Assembly (NCBI GenBank): GCA_009773185.1
Contig: WPIF01000028.1
Coordinates: 1-33,460 of the forward strand
Direction of reading: 5' to 3'
DNA: 33,460 bases
DNA from: Nitrospirota bacterium
GTDB lineage: Bacteria > Nitrospirota > Thermodesulfovibrionia > Thermodesulfovibrionales > UBA1546
Shown here: one piece after another, positions 2,391 to 26,599 of the stretch
Layout of the letters: every line of letters starts with the position of its first letter
Numbering within the stretch: position 1 is the first letter of the stretch
Translations under genes and position numbers: made by a program
The notes under the pieces: generated by a model
What the model saw: only the letters and a program-made list of their open reading frames with translations
Told to the model about the DNA's origin: nothing
Database searches by the model: none

Positions 2391-3053
2391 ATGATACATT
2401 TTACCAATGTCTCCAAGATTTACGAAAACCATGCAGCCCTCAGGGATATAACCTTTTCAATAGAGAAAGGGGAAATGGCTTTTATAACAGGGCCGAGCGG
2501 CGCCGGAAAATCAACCCTTCTTAAGATTATTTATCTTTCTGAAAAACCTGATGAGGGCAGCGTAACAATTGCAGAGTGGGAACTCAGCAAGCTCAAGGAG
2601 TCCAGCATCCCTTTCTTGAGAAGGAATATAGGCGTGGTATTTCAGGACTTCAGGCTTCTGGACAACAGGAATGTATTCGATAATATTGCCATGGCGCTGA
2701 GGATAAGAGGGATGACGGAGTACGAGGTAAAGGAAAGGGTCATGGAGGTCTTGAAGACAGTTAACCTCAGGCATAAGGCTGATAGTTTCCCGAAGACACT
2801 CTCAGGCGGGGAACAGCAGAGGGTTGTTATTGCTCGTGCAATAGTCGGGGAGCCGACAGTGCTCCTTGCCGATGAACCTACAGGGAACCTTGACGCTGAC
2901 ACTGCAGCCGGAATTACAAGGATGTTCAAGGAGATAAATGCAAAAGGCACAACAGTGCTTGTTGCTACACACAACAAGGAACTTTTCAGAAATACCGGCA
3001 GGAGGGTGCTCAAAATTGACAACGGGACCATTGTAGGCGAGGAGATGGGCTGA
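2391..3053 (+). CDS. ftsE: Cell division ATP-binding protein FtsE
   Basis: ATPase of the FtsEX complex. FtsEX does not transport a substrate; it activates periplasmic or extracellular peptidoglycan hydrolases at the division site. In 220 residues it shows Walker A GPSGAGKST (about residue 35), the ABC signature LSGGEQQR, Walker B VLLADEPTGNLD and the H-loop VATHNKEL. The start has the usual FtsE form (MIHFTNVSKIYENHAALRDI). Its TGA overlaps the ATG of ftsX by one base, and an EnvC-like gene follows, which is the expected functional context. Confidence 0.96.
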   Translation: MIHFTNVSKIYENHAALRDITFSIEKGEMAFITGPSGAGKSTLLKIIYLSEKPDEGSVTIAEWELSKLKESSIPFLRRNIGVVFQDFRLLDNRNVFDNIAMALRIRGMTEYEVKERVMEVLKTVNLRHKADSFPKTLSGGEQQRVVIARAIVGEPTVLLADEPTGNLDADTAAGITRMFKEINAKGTTVLVATHNKELFRNTGRRVLKIDNGTIVGEEMG

Positions 3054-3931
3054 TGTATATATTATATTCTCTCAGGCTTGCTATTCAAAGCGTATGGCAT
3101 GAAAAGTGGATAAACCTCCTCTCGGTGCTGACGATAGCAGCAGGCCTGTTCATGATCACCCTTACATTTTTTTCTGTTTATAACATGGATCTGGCAACAA
3201 AAAAACTTCCGGAGAAGTTTTCCATGATGCTCTACCTTAACAATGACCTGTCAGAGCAGGAGGTAGGGAACATAATGTCAACACTGAAAAAAAATATCGC
3301 TGTTGAGCGGGCAAGATATATCTCGAAAGACAAGGCGCTGGAAGAACTGAAGGGAGTTCTGAAGAATGCAGACTATGTGCTTGAAGGCATAAACGAAAAC
3401 CCTCTTCCTGCATCCATAGAGGTAAAGCTGAGGCAGGAATCCGTCAGTATCTCAAAGGTAAAAAAGCTTGCCGCAGATATCAGGAAGATTAAAGGCATTG
3501 AAGAAGTAGAATATGGCGAGCAATTTCTGAACTCTATCCATTCCATAAAGGCAGGCGCGCAGACACTCGGATTGCTCATGATAAGCGTAATGTCCACGGG
3601 TGTTATATTTGTATGTTACAGCACCGTAAAGATCATGTTTTACCGCAGGAAGGAAGAGATAGAGACCTTTAAACTCCTTGGAGCAACGAGAGGATTTATA
3701 AGGGCTCCTTTTGTTATAGAGGGCGGCATCCTTGGTATTGGCGGCGGTGTGGTGAGCCTTATCGGCACAATGGCCTTATACTATACCCTGTTTTATAAAC
3801 TGGCCCTTACTATGCCTATCTTCAAGATTATCGTGTTCCCATCCGAGGTATTTATTGCGCTTCCTTTTGTGGGCCTGGCGCTGGGCGTCAGCGGCGCCGT
3901 AATAGCATTGGGCAGGATAAGGTTTTCCTGA
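3053..3931 (+). CDS. ftsX: Cell division membrane protein FtsX
   Basis: Membrane partner of FtsE, 292 residues. One N-terminal membrane helix (about 20-44) is followed by an extracytoplasmic domain of about 125 residues. Three more helices follow (about 173-197, 222-250 and 265-287), the standard four-helix FtsX layout. The stretch FYRRKEEIETFKLLGATRGFIRAPFVIEGGILG is the typical cytoplasmic coupling and membrane region of the family. The extracytoplasmic domain is where FtsX is known to recruit EnvC-type activators; such a gene starts 4 bases downstream. Confidence 0.95.
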   Translation: MYILYSLRLAIQSVWHEKWINLLSVLTIAAGLFMITLTFFSVYNMDLATKKLPEKFSMMLYLNNDLSEQEVGNIMSTLKKNIAVERARYISKDKALEELKGVLKNADYVLEGINENPLPASIEVKLRQESVSISKVKKLAADIRKIKGIEEVEYGEQFLNSIHSIKAGAQTLGLLMISVMSTGVIFVCYSTVKIMFYRRKEEIETFKLLGATRGFIRAPFVIEGGILGIGGGVVSLIGTMALYYTLFYKLALTMPIFKIIVFPSEVFIALPFVGLALGVSGAVIALGRIRFS

Positions 3932-3934
3932 GAA

Positions 3935-4020
3935 GATGCACGATACACGATACACGATGCACGATACACGAAAAAGACAATCTCTCCATTTTGTATCCTG
4001 CATCTTGTATCTTGCATCAA
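3935..4020. repeat. Heptamer-repeat inverted element (GATRCAN type) forming the start of the EnvC-like gene
   Basis: Five consecutive 7-base units at 3935-3969 (types GATGCAC and GATACAC) face four units on the opposite strand at 3993-4020 (read there as types TTGATGC, AAGATAC, AAGATGC and AGGATAC). About 23 bases lie between the arms. Both arms fit GATRCAN and can pair imperfectly. The ATG of the downstream gene (3936) lies inside the first unit, and the second arm encodes the core of its signal peptide. The same unit recurs at 6502-6578 and 16383-16456. Confidence 0.85.
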
Positions 4021-5120
4021 TTTTTATATTAAATGGCACTGCCTTTTCTGCTGAAACCCCCAAGGAAGAATACAAGAAGCTTCAAAAAGAGATTGATACG
4101 CACAAGGAAAAAATTGAGAAGACAAAAAGGGCGGAACATTCAATACTTGAAGAGCTTGACAGGACCAATAAAGACCTCAATCATGTGCAGTCAGAACTGA
4201 GAAAATACAGGGCTAAGCTCAGGATTACAGAAAATGAGATACACAAGGTTGAGGCAGAGATAGAGGCAAATAAGGCCAGGCTTGCAAAACAGGCCGAGTG
4301 GCTGAAGAGGAAACTGCGCATTATGCAGAGGCATGGATATTCAGGCGACATAATACTCCTGCTCTCGACCTCTGACGACATATCGCAGCTCATGAGGAGA
4401 TGGCGGTATATAAAAGAGATAACCTTCTATGACCATAAGATGCTGGAGGGGTACAAACAGACTATAGATAATCTTGATAAACAGGAGAACCGTTTAAAAT
4501 CGCTGCGAGCTGAACTTAAGGCGAATGAAGAAGACATAGAAGTGAACGAGGCATCTATTCTGGAGAAGAAAAAGGGCAAAGAGATACTCCTTTCTTCTGT
4601 CAGGAAAGAAAAATCCTCTTATGAAAAAATGCTGAAAGAACTGAGGGAGGCATCCAGCAGGCTCCTCGAGATAATAAGGCACGCGGAAGAAACAGAGGCT
4701 TATGCTGCCAAAGGTTTTCACAACCTGAAGGGAAGGCTCCTGTGGCCTGTTCACGGCAAGGTCACAATCCCGTACGGAGCCCAAAAGGACCCCCAGTTTA
4801 ATACCCCTGTGTTCAAAAACGGCATTCACATAAAGGCAGAAGGCGATTCTAACGCAAAGGCGGTTTACAGCGGCAAGGTGGTATTTGCAGAATGGTTTAA
4901 AGGCTATGGCCAGCTTGTCATAATAAGCCATGGAGAGGGGTACCATACCCTTTATGCAAATTTAGCAGAGATTTTTTATAAGGTTGGAGATATAATAAAA
5001 GAACAGCAGGTAATTGGAAGGGTGGGGGAGTCAGGGACCCTGAATTCTTCAGGGCTGTACTTTGAGATAAGGTATAAAGGCAAACCGCTTGATCCGGCAC
5101 AGTGGCTGAAAAAAAGATAA
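3936..5120 (+). CDS. envC: EnvC-like murein hydrolase activator (coiled coil plus degenerate LytM/M23 domain)
   Basis: Probable periplasmic activator of peptidoglycan amidases, recruited by FtsX. In 394 residues the order is: signal peptide (hydrophobic core about residues 18-36, cleavage probably after TAFSA), a long coiled coil (about 42-265) and a C-terminal LytM/M23 domain (about 275-392). The M23 zinc motifs are degraded. NGIHIKA stands where active enzymes have HxGxD, and SGLYFEIR stands where they have HxHFE. This matches the known catalytically dead EnvC and argues for an activator rather than an endopeptidase. The start codon and much of the signal peptide derive from the heptamer element at 3935-4020. 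No alternative ATG gives an intact signal peptide. It directly follows ftsX. Confidence 0.88.
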   Translation: MHDTRYTMHDTRKRQSLHFVSCILYLASIFILNGTAFSAETPKEEYKKLQKEIDTHKEKIEKTKRAEHSILEELDRTNKDLNHVQSELRKYRAKLRITENEIHKVEAEIEANKARLAKQAEWLKRKLRIMQRHGYSGDIILLLSTSDDISQLMRRWRYIKEITFYDHKMLEGYKQTIDNLDKQENRLKSLRAELKANEEDIEVNEASILEKKKGKEILLSSVRKEKSSYEKMLKELREASSRLLEIIRHAEETEAYAAKGFHNLKGRLLWPVHGKVTIPYGAQKDPQFNTPVFKNGIHIKAEGDSNAKAVYSGKVVFAEWFKGYGQLVIISHGEGYHTLYANLAEIFYKVGDIIKEQQVIGRVGESGTLNSSGLYFEIRYKGKPLDPAQWLKKR

Positions 5121-6494: not shown

Positions 6495-6501
6495 AAAAGG
6501 T

Positions 6502-6578
6502 GCATGATTCATGATGCAAGATGCAAGTTAACTGCAAGCTGTATCATCTTGAATCGTGCATCATGTATCTTGTATCCT
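6502..6578. repeat. Heptamer-repeat inverted element (GATRCAN type) between ctpA and the exonuclease gene
   Basis: The left arm has units of types GATTCAT and GATGCAA (6506-6526). The right arm, read on the opposite strand, has GATACAA, GATACAT, GATGCAC and GATTCAA (about 6541-6578). It fills almost the whole gap between the ctpA stop (6494) and the next start (6586). It keeps an open frame that would add MHHVSCILKK to the exonuclease if a GTG at 6556 were used. Confidence 0.85.
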
Positions 6579-6585
6579 TAAGAAA

Positions 6586-7254
6586 ATGTCCAGAATTATT
6601 TTTGATATAGAGACTGCCGGCAAGGACTTTGACTCCCTTGATAAGGGTACCCAGGAGTACCTGCTGAAGTGGGCCGAATCAGAAGAAGATGTTAAAGACG
6701 TAAAAGAAAGCCTGTCTCTTTATCCCCTGACCGGTGAGATAATTACCATCGGCATGCTTAATCCTGAAACAGATAAAGGCGCAGTATATTTTCAGGCGCC
6801 CCAAACACCGATTGCCCCTTTTGAAGAAAACGGGATAAGGTTTGAAACAGGTTCTGAAAAAGATATACTTGAAAAATTCTGGAGTACAGTAAAGAGTTAT
6901 AAAGAGATAGTAACATTTAATGGAAGGGGTTTTGACTGCCCATTTATACTGGTCCGCTCCGCAGTGCATAAGATAAAACCTACAAAAGACCTTATGCCCA
7001 ACAGATATAACGGCTCCCATATAGACCTGCTCGACCAGCTTACTTTTTACGGAGCATCAAGGCGCAGATTCAGCCTTGATATGTGGTGCAAGACCTTCGG
7101 CATAAAAAGCCCCAAGGAAGGTGGCATAACAGGATATGACATTAAAGACCTGTTTGCAAACAAGAGGTATACTGATATCGCAAGGTACTGTTTCGGGGAT
7201 ATCAGGGCGACAAAAGAGCTTTTTCACTATTGGGAAAACTACATAAAGTTCTAA
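6586..7254 (+). CDS. Predicted 3'-5' exonuclease (DnaQ-like, PolB-type exonuclease domain)
   Basis: RNase H-fold exonuclease of the family related to the proofreading domain of B-family DNA polymerases. It has the first acidic motif FDIETAG (Exo I, residues about 5-11), the Exo II region ETFNGRGFDCPF-like (ivTFNGRGFDCPF, about residue 110) and an Exo III-like tail (ARYCFGDIRATKELFHYW), consistent with a DEDD nuclease. There is no polymerase domain. ATG 6586 starts the conserved fold directly. Upstream GTG 6556 lies in repeat DNA and is unlikely. The substrate cannot be read from the sequence; repair or replication is a guess. Confidence 0.85.
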   Translation: MSRIIFDIETAGKDFDSLDKGTQEYLLKWAESEEDVKDVKESLSLYPLTGEIITIGMLNPETDKGAVYFQAPQTPIAPFEENGIRFETGSEKDILEKFWSTVKSYKEIVTFNGRGFDCPFILVRSAVHKIKPTKDLMPNRYNGSHIDLLDQLTFYGASRRRFSLDMWCKTFGIKSPKEGGITGYDIKDLFANKRYTDIARYCFGDIRATKELFHYWENYIKF

Positions 7255-16179: not shown

Positions 16180-17228
16180 AAAATAAGCATAGCATCACCA
16201 TAGGAGAAAAATCTATATTTATAGTCTATGGCTGTGTTATACGCTTCCTTCAGATTTTTTAAGCCGCAAAAGGCAGCTGTCAGCATAATCGGGGTTGAGC
16301 GGGGGAGGTGAAAATTTGTGACGAGTGAATCAACAGCCCTGAATTTGTAACCCGGATAGATGAAGATGTTGGTGTAACCATAGATGCATGATGCATGATG
16401 CGTGATGCACGAGCCGTTTTTGTGTCCCGTATCCTGTATCTTGCATCCTGTATCTTTCCATTGCCCGCTCATATATCCCTCAATTGCCCTTGTTGTTGTG
16501 GTTCCAACAGATATGACTTTCCTGCCTGAAGCCTTTGTTTTTTTAATCTCATCAACAATATCTGCATCTATCTCAAAATATTCTGAATCCATGGAGTGTT
16601 CCTCTATATTTTCTGCCTTTATCATTTTAAATGTCCCTATGCCGACATGCAGTGTCAGATATCTTACATTTACACCCTTTGCCTTTATCCTGTCTATCAG
16701 CTCTCCGGTAAAATGAAGCCCTGCGGTTGGAGCTGCAATCGAGCCCTGCTGTTCCGCATATATTGTCTGATAACGTTCTTTATCAATTTGTTCAGGCCTG
16801 CGTTTTATGTATGGAGGCAGAGGCATATCCCCATATCTCCAGAGGTTATCCATAAAATCCCCTGAATATGTGAAACGTGCAACCCCTCCTTCTATCTCTG
16901 CTGAAAAGCCTCCTGATATTGATAGACTGCCGCTCCATTTCTTCTTGGATAATATCTCCCAGGTATCAGGCTCAATCTCTTTCACAAGGAGGATTTCCAC
17001 CTTCCCGCCTGACGGCTTGGTTCCTATAAGCCTTGCCGGAAAGACCATGGTGTTATTAAGTAAAAGCATATCTCCTTTATTCAGGTACTCTGCGAGGTCA
17101 TGGAATTTTCTCGATTCTATTTTACCGTCTCTGTGAAGCACGAGGAGATTTGACCTGTCTCTTTTTTCAGCAGGTTTTTTTGCTATCAGCGAATCCGGAA
17201 GGGAAAAGTCAAAATCAGCGGCCTTCAT
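16176..17228 (-). CDS. queA: S-adenosylmethionine:tRNA ribosyltransferase-isomerase QueA
   Basis: Transfers and isomerises the ribosyl group of SAM onto preQ1-tRNA to give epoxyqueuosine. The 350-residue protein has the expected start MKAADFDFSLPDSLIAKKPAEKRD, LLLNNTMVFPARL, APTAGLHFT, LHVGIGTFKMI, SVGTTTTRAIE and YPGYKFRAVDSLVTNFHLPRST. ATG 17228 was chosen because upstream in-frame residues lie inside the spoIID-like gene. Residues about 258-283, between the TTTTRAIE and IFIYPGY segments, are encoded by a heptamer element and show a 7-residue period (DTGCKIQ, DTGHKNG, SCITHHA). QueH, the last enzyme of the pathway, is two genes upstream. Confidence 0.95.
   Translation of the reverse strand: MKAADFDFSLPDSLIAKKPAEKRDRSNLLVLHRDGKIESRKFHDLAEYLNKGDMLLLNNTMVFPARLIGTKPSGGKVEILLVKEIEPDTWEILSKKKWSGSLSISGGFSAEIEGGVARFTYSGDFMDNLWRYGDMPLPPYIKRRPEQIDKERYQTIYAEQQGSIAAPTAGLHFTGELIDRIKAKGVNVRYLTLHVGIGTFKMIKAENIEEHSMDSEYFEIDADIVDEIKKTKASGRKVISVGTTTTRAIEGYMSGQWKDTGCKIQDTGHKNGSCITHHASCIYGYTNIFIYPGYKFRAVDSLVTNFHLPRSTPIMLTAAFCGLKNLKEAYNTAIDYKYRFFSYGDAMLIL
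16383..16456. repeat. Heptamer-repeat inverted element (GATRCAN type) inside queA
   Basis: Left arm: four units of types GATGCAT, GATGCGT and GATGCAC at 16383-16410. Right arm, read on the opposite strand: AAGATAC, AGGATGC and AGGATAC types at 16429-16456. The arms are separated by about 18 bases and can pair imperfectly. It is the same unit as at 3935 and 6502, here lying wholly within a conserved gene and keeping its frame. Confidence 0.85.
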
Positions 17229-26464: not shown

Positions 26465-26599
26465 ATGGAGGGGTTATAGCATTTTCTCTCATTCTCGTCC
26501 CGATGAAACCGGGACTCCGAGGTTTTGCCCGCTTTATATCTGATGTTTGCTGTAGGAATTGCGGGCAAAAAAACCGCTCAAATGCTATAACCCCTCCAT
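26465..26599. mobile_element. 135-bp inverted-repeat element (MITE-like or structured RNA) between asd and the RACo-like gene
   Basis: The ends are a perfect 20-bp inverted repeat: ATGGAGGGGTTATAGCATTT at 26465-26484 and its complement at 26580-26599. Inside are a 10-bp perfect inverted repeat (26523-26532 with 26561-26570) and a 6-bp hairpin (GTCCCG 26497-26502 with CGGGAC 26510-26515). The whole can fold into a branched structure. It holds no gene and fills the 162-bp gap. It may be a non-autonomous mobile element or a cis-acting RNA; no clear target-site duplication is visible. Confidence 0.65.

Follow-up and report, generated by a model that had tools for sequence, protein, structure and literature searches.

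Repeat elements built of 7-nt arrays in the predicted signal peptide of an EnvC-like protein and at other coding sites of Thermodesulfovibrionales

The start of an EnvC-like gene from a groundwater Nitrospirota bacterium lies within a short repeat element, from which most of the predicted signal peptide of the encoded protein is built. This element probably belongs to a frame-neutral class of repeats, comparable to the Rickettsia palindromic elements (RPE), that survives at permissive sites and above all in signal peptides. Its members would be short and consist of a single array of a 7-nt unit or of two such arrays, which in many cases face one another to form an imperfect palindrome. The window analyzed is contig WPIF01000028.1, from position 1 to 33,460, and forms part of a draft genome of 2.79 Mb in 44 contigs (G000).

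In the window ftsE, ftsX, and the EnvC-like gene are consecutive (Table 1), and the product of the latter combines an M23 domain with a coiled coil and is encoded next to ftsEX, as is expected of EnvC. NCBIfam EnvC was its best match (121.6 bits), and the protein is referred to as EnvC-like because the equivalog cut-off of 270 was not reached. The initial annotation had placed a repeat element at 3935-4020, and this was borne out: an imperfect palindrome of 7-nt units, with GATRCAN on the left and TGYATCN on the right, spans 3935-4018 in frame with the EnvC-like ORF. The left array sets in 4 bases past the ftsX stop, and its 7-nt periodicity score was matched by none of 300 shuffles of the junction. 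Only lag 7 stands out, which identifies the units as heptanucleotides in tandem.

Table 1. Coordinates of the genes and repeat features in the window
Feature	Position	Strand	Remarks
ftsE	2391..3053	+	NCBIfam FtsE TIGR02673, 292 bits, above cut-off
ftsX	3053..3931	+	Best match NCBIfam FtsX_Gneg, 212.6 bits, under cut-off 255; stop 4 nt ahead of envC start
EnvC-like gene	3936..5120	+	Coiled coil and Peptidase_M23 (Pfam M23, 4e-26)
Predicted signal peptide, residues 1-34	3936..4037	+	Simple rule (not SignalP)
Left array	3935..3971	+	GATGCACGATACACGATACACGATGCACGATACACGA; GATRCAN units, seventh base always C; encodes n-region HDTRYTMHDTR
Spacer, loop side of palindrome	3972..3991	+	20 nt; encodes about KRQSLHF
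Right array	3992..4018	+	TGYATCN units, roughly the reverse complement of the left array; encodes SCILYLAS, first half of hydrophobic core
Second copy	6499..6576	.	Between ctpA-like gene and next gene; in-frame ATG follows at 6586
Third copy	16383..16454	-	In frame within queA (DTGCKIQDTGHKNGSCITHHASCI)

Reading the envC frame through the whole element yields the N-terminus MHDTRYTMHDTRKRQSLHFVSCILYLASIFILNGTAFSAE. The rule predicts the signal peptide MHDTRYTMHDTRKRQSLHFVSCILYLASIFILNG, cut before TAFSAE, and an alternative cleavage was noted by eye past residue 39 (to 4052). By rule of thumb alone, this stretch shows the basic n-region, hydrophobic core, and cleavage motif of a Sec signal. 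Of its bases, 62% lie inside 7-nt arrays (68% in the n-region and 61% in the h-region). The initial proposal that the targeting signal is built from repeat DNA thus holds for most of the predicted signal; it recurs with different repeats in relatives, and repeat-built predicted signals were also found in exported proteins other than the EnvC-like one. The second arm had been said to encode most of the core, which is correct for the first half; the second half (IFIL) and the cleavage region are non-repeat. Among the loci compared, no relative was found with the same N-terminus and no repeat, the N-terminus always occurring together with this repeat. Substitutions amount to Sd 3 and Nd 1 between G000 and G001 and to Sd 1 and Nd 6 between G000 and G004, and the constraint on the element that can be read from these counts is weak. 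Signal peptides and gene starts were called throughout by simple home-made rules, which missed some real cases and may also invent cases, because Y-rich arrays are read as hydrophobic.

The in-frame starts of the EnvC-like ORF are ATG 3936, ATG 3957, TTG 4005, and then GTG 4185. ATG 3936 overlaps the first unit of the left array and ATG 3957 a later one, and each of them yields a signal peptide by the rule; the statement that 3936 is the only suitable ATG is thus not correct. If the repeat were plain intergenic DNA into which the gene has been over-extended, EnvC would start downstream and lack this signal, and the element does directly precede later-starting genes elsewhere, as at 6499-6576 before ATG 6586. 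At envC, however, GTG 4185, which follows TTG 4005 and is the sole in-frame candidate past 4020, would delete the entire signal and about 45 mature residues, and the first ATG stays past ftsX in relatives. Furthermore, G004 carries the same element as G000 with ATA at codon 8 and yet has kept the first ATG, which is therefore the likelier start. Over-extension of the gene is accordingly regarded as very improbable. An in-frame ATG was absent from 2 of 20 array-bearing and 6 of 63 array-free relatives. In the others, the first one fell between -12 and +15 nt relative to the ftsX stop codon in 15 of 18 with arrays and 48 of 57 without. The array-free G006, for example, reads TGA-GGTAA-ATGCAG at the ftsX-envC boundary. 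Since array-free relatives start at the same place past ftsX, the ATG of envC is probably ancestral and need not have been brought by the repeat, and the earlier claim that the repeat supplies the start codon is unsupported.

The element could also matter at the RNA level, with a hairpin between ftsX and envC acting on translation or decay and the coding being a side effect. The predicted fold of 3915-4040 is indeed a hairpin of -31.6 kcal/mol (z = -4.76) that was equalled in stability by none of 200 shuffles, and the AUG of envC lies inside its stem; together with the two-armed copies, this fold gives the element the palindromic stem-loop character of RPE. Yet the junction arrays of several relatives are one-armed or, as judged by eye, have non-complementary arms (L015 and L112), and mismatches occupy the seventh positions in the ATC family (GATRCAN...TGYATCN), and we consider a hairpin function an improbable account of the element. 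Of 159 pairs of facing seventh bases in this family, 117 were purine-purine or pyrimidine-pyrimidine (78.7 expected), which gives the family an orientation, and only 14 were Watson-Crick (40.1 expected), so that a strict inverted repeat was rejected.

Several properties of these arrays follow from arithmetic. Because 7 is not a multiple of 3, an array gives the same cyclic heptapeptide, rotated, in all three frames, and the reading of a unit recurs every 21 nt, which is not a measured result. An array whose unit has no stops is therefore open in any frame, and only its total length needs to preserve the frame. TGYATCN permits no stop in any frame and GATRCAN only if N is T, and among the real, degenerate arms stops were present in 45 of 129 readings of the left arm and in 20 of 129 of the right. 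The mean hydropathy of the arm readings was -0.58 on the left and +1.02 on the right. Whole elements, with a mean length of 75 bp (21 two-armed elements), had on average 2.71 of six frames open compared to 1.51 in shuffles, so that the majority remain closed, in part because of the left array. In cases picked by eye, the right array was readable in 13 of 15 gene-internal elements, all with purines at the seventh bases (like RASCIMHHAS), and of eight starts of exported proteins, three had pyrimidines only (like SCILYLAS), three purines, and one a mixture, with one lacking a right array. Counting duplicates, array bases were 57% purine in the n-regions of 22 loci and 30% purine in the h-regions of 14 loci; the values of 53% and 26% for 35 array-free envC genes are similar.

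Arrays were also found at the ftsX-envC junction of some of the relatives. Of 110 envC loci, 108 were used, since L117 and L133 contained gene fragments only, and a first thinning, in which some duplicates remain, reduced these to 98. With a lag-7 score of at least 11, arrays were detected at the junction in 28 of 98 loci, compared with a single locus of the 98 for the coiled coil and two for the 3' end of ftsX; other lags gave 0 to 3 of 98 at the junction, except for 20 at the harmonic lag 14. At a threshold of 13 in 51 loci, the junction was positive in 14 of 51, whereas the junction behind envC was positive in 1 of 50 and the approximate ftsE-ftsX junction in none of 50. Stricter thinning to non-redundant EnvC loci left 7-nt arrays at 20 of 87 junctions, with more than 10 different units. 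On a tree of mature EnvC, the 20 of 83 scored rows that carry arrays require at least 11 gains or losses, a count from which four borderline rows scoring 9 to 10.5 were left out. In the family of the window the unit is GATRCAN. A congeneric species (G003) has AGCTATC, and other families contain, as sorted by eye, AAAATTC with CATCTGT, GGGCAAA with TTTTCAC, GAGCAAA, TTCACTG, AGTTCTC, GGGAAGT, and more. Examples of array-bearing N-termini are MEQRAMSKEQRAQGIRHNILRFLVFNSLLLALCSLLFFSYCYAAS (L084) and MQNFCHLSSAICHLLTAYCLLFTTLFLPNIVSAE (L015), both among the seven array-bearing loci on which the signal-peptide rule fails. These sequence comparisons indicate that the envC site has been repeatedly refilled by unrelated heptamers. 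The window comes from a draft genome and most relatives are metagenome bins, which might suggest an assembly artefact, but identical arrays stand at the same place and in frame in separately assembled genomes, and an artefact is extremely improbable.

Elements of this type are widespread beyond envC. A search of the G000 genome for TGYATCNTGYATCNTGYATC with up to 2 mismatches returned 65 + 70 = 135 matches, with none for the backwards control, and the exact pattern was present in 15 of the family's 16 genomes and, within the order, in 32 of 176. The initial remark that related residues appear where the same arm is read elsewhere is confirmed by these other copies. The copy at 6499-6576 is probably untranslated because an in-frame ATG follows at 6586; the ORF 6556-7254, called from GTG 6556 (MHHVSCILKK), probably reaches too far upstream, into the repeat, and more likely starts at ATG 6586 (MSRIIFDIETAG). 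Of 29 elements in 20 fetched regions and the window, 8 were judged by eye to lie in frame inside genes and 5 to form N-termini of exported proteins, namely, the EnvC-like protein, a small periplasmic-type protein (L148), an RlpA-like lipoprotein (L154), and two proteins in L158. Pfam assigned the internal cases to QueA, RsmE, DapF, RecJ, TatD, a CobB-type protein, a CoA-enzyme activase, and a radical-SAM protein, which we take to be of the MiaB/RimO type. Script labels classed 6 of 31 further elements (from G002, G009, G011, G012, and G014) as internal and 11 as N-terminal, 5 of the latter belonging by eye to exported proteins. In-frame insertion into conserved proteins, including QueA, DapF, RecJ, RsmE, CarB, LeuRS, and others, is thus a property shared with RPE.

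Individual loci show further arrangements. A leucyl-tRNA synthetase gene (L225, 5581-8283) contains three different in-frame heptamer elements, and the adjoining LptE gene has a signal peptide made of two arrays. A RapZ gene apparently starts at a GTG within the right array (L160, 3002-3059; MYRASGIKLQPAVVIISG), where the repeat may supply the start codon. A second palindrome, CCCCCCTT..AAGGGGGG, read as PPLSKGGQGG, occurs in frame at the same sites (L064 and L010, both envC of G012, and L241, L243, and L248, all DapF) and once is nested inside a heptamer element. Another short motif (near GTCGGAGCGACTC, accompanied by GAGACTCGCTTCGAG or CGCAACGAGAG) lies within heptamer elements at L151 (2964-3059) and L152 (2901-3001), and in G002 (L003) it is found in frame directly past the EnvC signal peptide. 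The window also holds a perfect 20-nt inverted repeat at 26465-26484 and 26580-26599, with 95 nt between the arms.

The density of the elements was determined in samples of the G000 genome. In 400 kb, 37 arrays scored at least 11 and none did so after shuffling; other lags gave 0 to 10 arrays and the harmonic lag 14 gave 24. A single repeat family was rejected, as the 37 arrays represent more than twenty unit sequences. They merged into 31 elements, of which scripts labeled 13 as N-terminal; 7 of these form signal peptides by eye, and the remaining 6 stand before a later start or in membrane proteins. The 7 cases matched the Pfam families HlyD, OEP (twice), LptE, Alph_Pro_TM, and ATP-synt_B, with one protein lacking a match. 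An automatic count over 776,567 bases (28% of the genome) found 6 elements in 10,464 bases of signal-peptide codons (0.57 per kb), 15 in 106,144 intergenic bases (0.14 per kb), 34 in 598,849 gene-internal bases (0.06 per kb), and 4 in 61,110 bases at the starts of other genes (0.07 per kb); the stretches were placed by contig, largely away from the separately chosen element loci, and ATC-type elements are therefore under-represented. In G000 the signal-peptide density is 4 times the intergenic and 10 times the gene-internal one, and 6 elements were reached in none of 2000 shifts. In G009, by the same rule, none of 14 elements fell in signal peptides in 280,000 bases (14 of 20 stretches, the 6 containing N having been left out), a test with little power because only 0.15 elements were expected there; by eye, an array does lie within the apparent signal peptide of a G009 M16 peptidase (L292).

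QueA and DapF are cytoplasmic enzymes, and their loops were refilled too. In QueA of relatives, the arrays between EGYMSG and TNIFIYPGY are of the ATC, ATTCACC, GTCAAGG, or ACTGACA type, and the DapF site holds ATC, AAGTCAG, TTCAAAG, AAAATTC, or a CCCCCTT-AAGGGGG palindrome and is empty in G006 and G008. G000 and G001, with EnvC proteins that are 98% identical, differ in the heptamer family at both sites. Because these cytoplasmic loops are refilled, tolerance is the main filter, and signal peptides are one permissive place with a suitable composition. The elements might instead be retained because export benefits from them or is tuned by them, a domestication beyond tolerance. This might be argued from the fourfold excess over intergenic DNA in G000, which tolerance alone does not predict, and from the number of changes at the envC site, but the refilled loops of QueA and DapF, the few substitutions with no clear selection signal, and the lack of support from G009 speak against it, and we hold it to be unlikely. 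A bolder possibility, which we find doubtful, is that signal peptides of the Thermodesulfovibrionales are drawn from a renewable stock of interchangeable arrays. An active process would then insert or swap arrays at preferred sites, many exported proteins would obtain their n- and h-regions in this way, and signal peptides would turn over by replacement of whole modules, not by point mutation. Comparison by eye of filled and empty DapF sites gave no clear target-site duplication of the kind expected for a MITE, and a search for a mobilizing enzyme that covered Y1_Tnp found none. Y1_Tnp matches do not track element number, and a Y1 transposase as sole mobilizer was rejected, since it is absent from the element-rich G009 (171 pattern matches) and G014 (78).

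In the favored explanation, that of a frame-neutral repeat surviving where it is tolerated, elements would be gained and lost quickly, as comparison shows, and most coding insertions would be removed by selection. Survivors would be found in surface loops and, at the highest density in the sampled genome, in signal peptides, which would be permissive because they need composition, not sequence. In GATRCAN...TGYATCN, the complementary arms provide purine-rich and then pyrimidine-rich codons, so that polar, basic residues are encoded by the left array and hydrophobic residues by the right one; this order corresponds to the n-region and h-region of a signal peptide. At envC, an element may have landed at or beside the existing start codon past ftsX and come to encode the n-region together with half of the core. 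Individual loci with a repeat-made signal peptide were already known, whereas here one orthologous site has undergone repeated, apparently independent replacement by different families, and the empty and filled relatives make the origin of signal peptides and the settlement of palindromes inside genes directly testable. For annotation, such N-termini resemble junk but may be real, and at other genes the ORF is wrongly lengthened by this repeat.

A literature search, covering published papers mainly from open journals, found neither heptamer-made signal peptides in Nitrospirota nor an account of heptamer arrays repeatedly replacing signal peptides. Already described in print are palindromes inserted in frame (RPE), a signal peptide made by a repeat (YPO1552), and arrays of heptanucleotides that in some cases lie inside ORFs. 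The heptanucleotide tandem repeats, TAACTGA in Beggiatoaceae and cyanobacteria and GGGAATC in Xanthomonas and Nostoc, share the tandem 7-nt units with the present elements, and TAACTGA arrays overlap or lie within a small number of ORFs, for the most part at the protein termini; however, in the parts of the reports drawn on, they are mostly intergenic direct repeats of one unit and no role in signal peptides is described (PMC4679880, PMC4692102). RPE, as characterized in a review, are short palindromic repeats that are found in intergenic regions and in frame within conserved proteins as tolerated insertions, which the elements described here resemble, but they measure 105-146 bp (PMC2229807), a length above the mean given above, whereas our elements are built of 7-nt units whose sequence varies by site. 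A likeness is also offered by the YPAL/RU-2 repeat of Yersinia, which at locus YPO1552 encodes part of the signal peptide of a putatively exported protein (PMC2229807), as is predicted here. That example comprises one locus and one family, whereas the present elements are spread over many proteins, belong to many unit families, and have replaced one another repeatedly at a single orthologous site.
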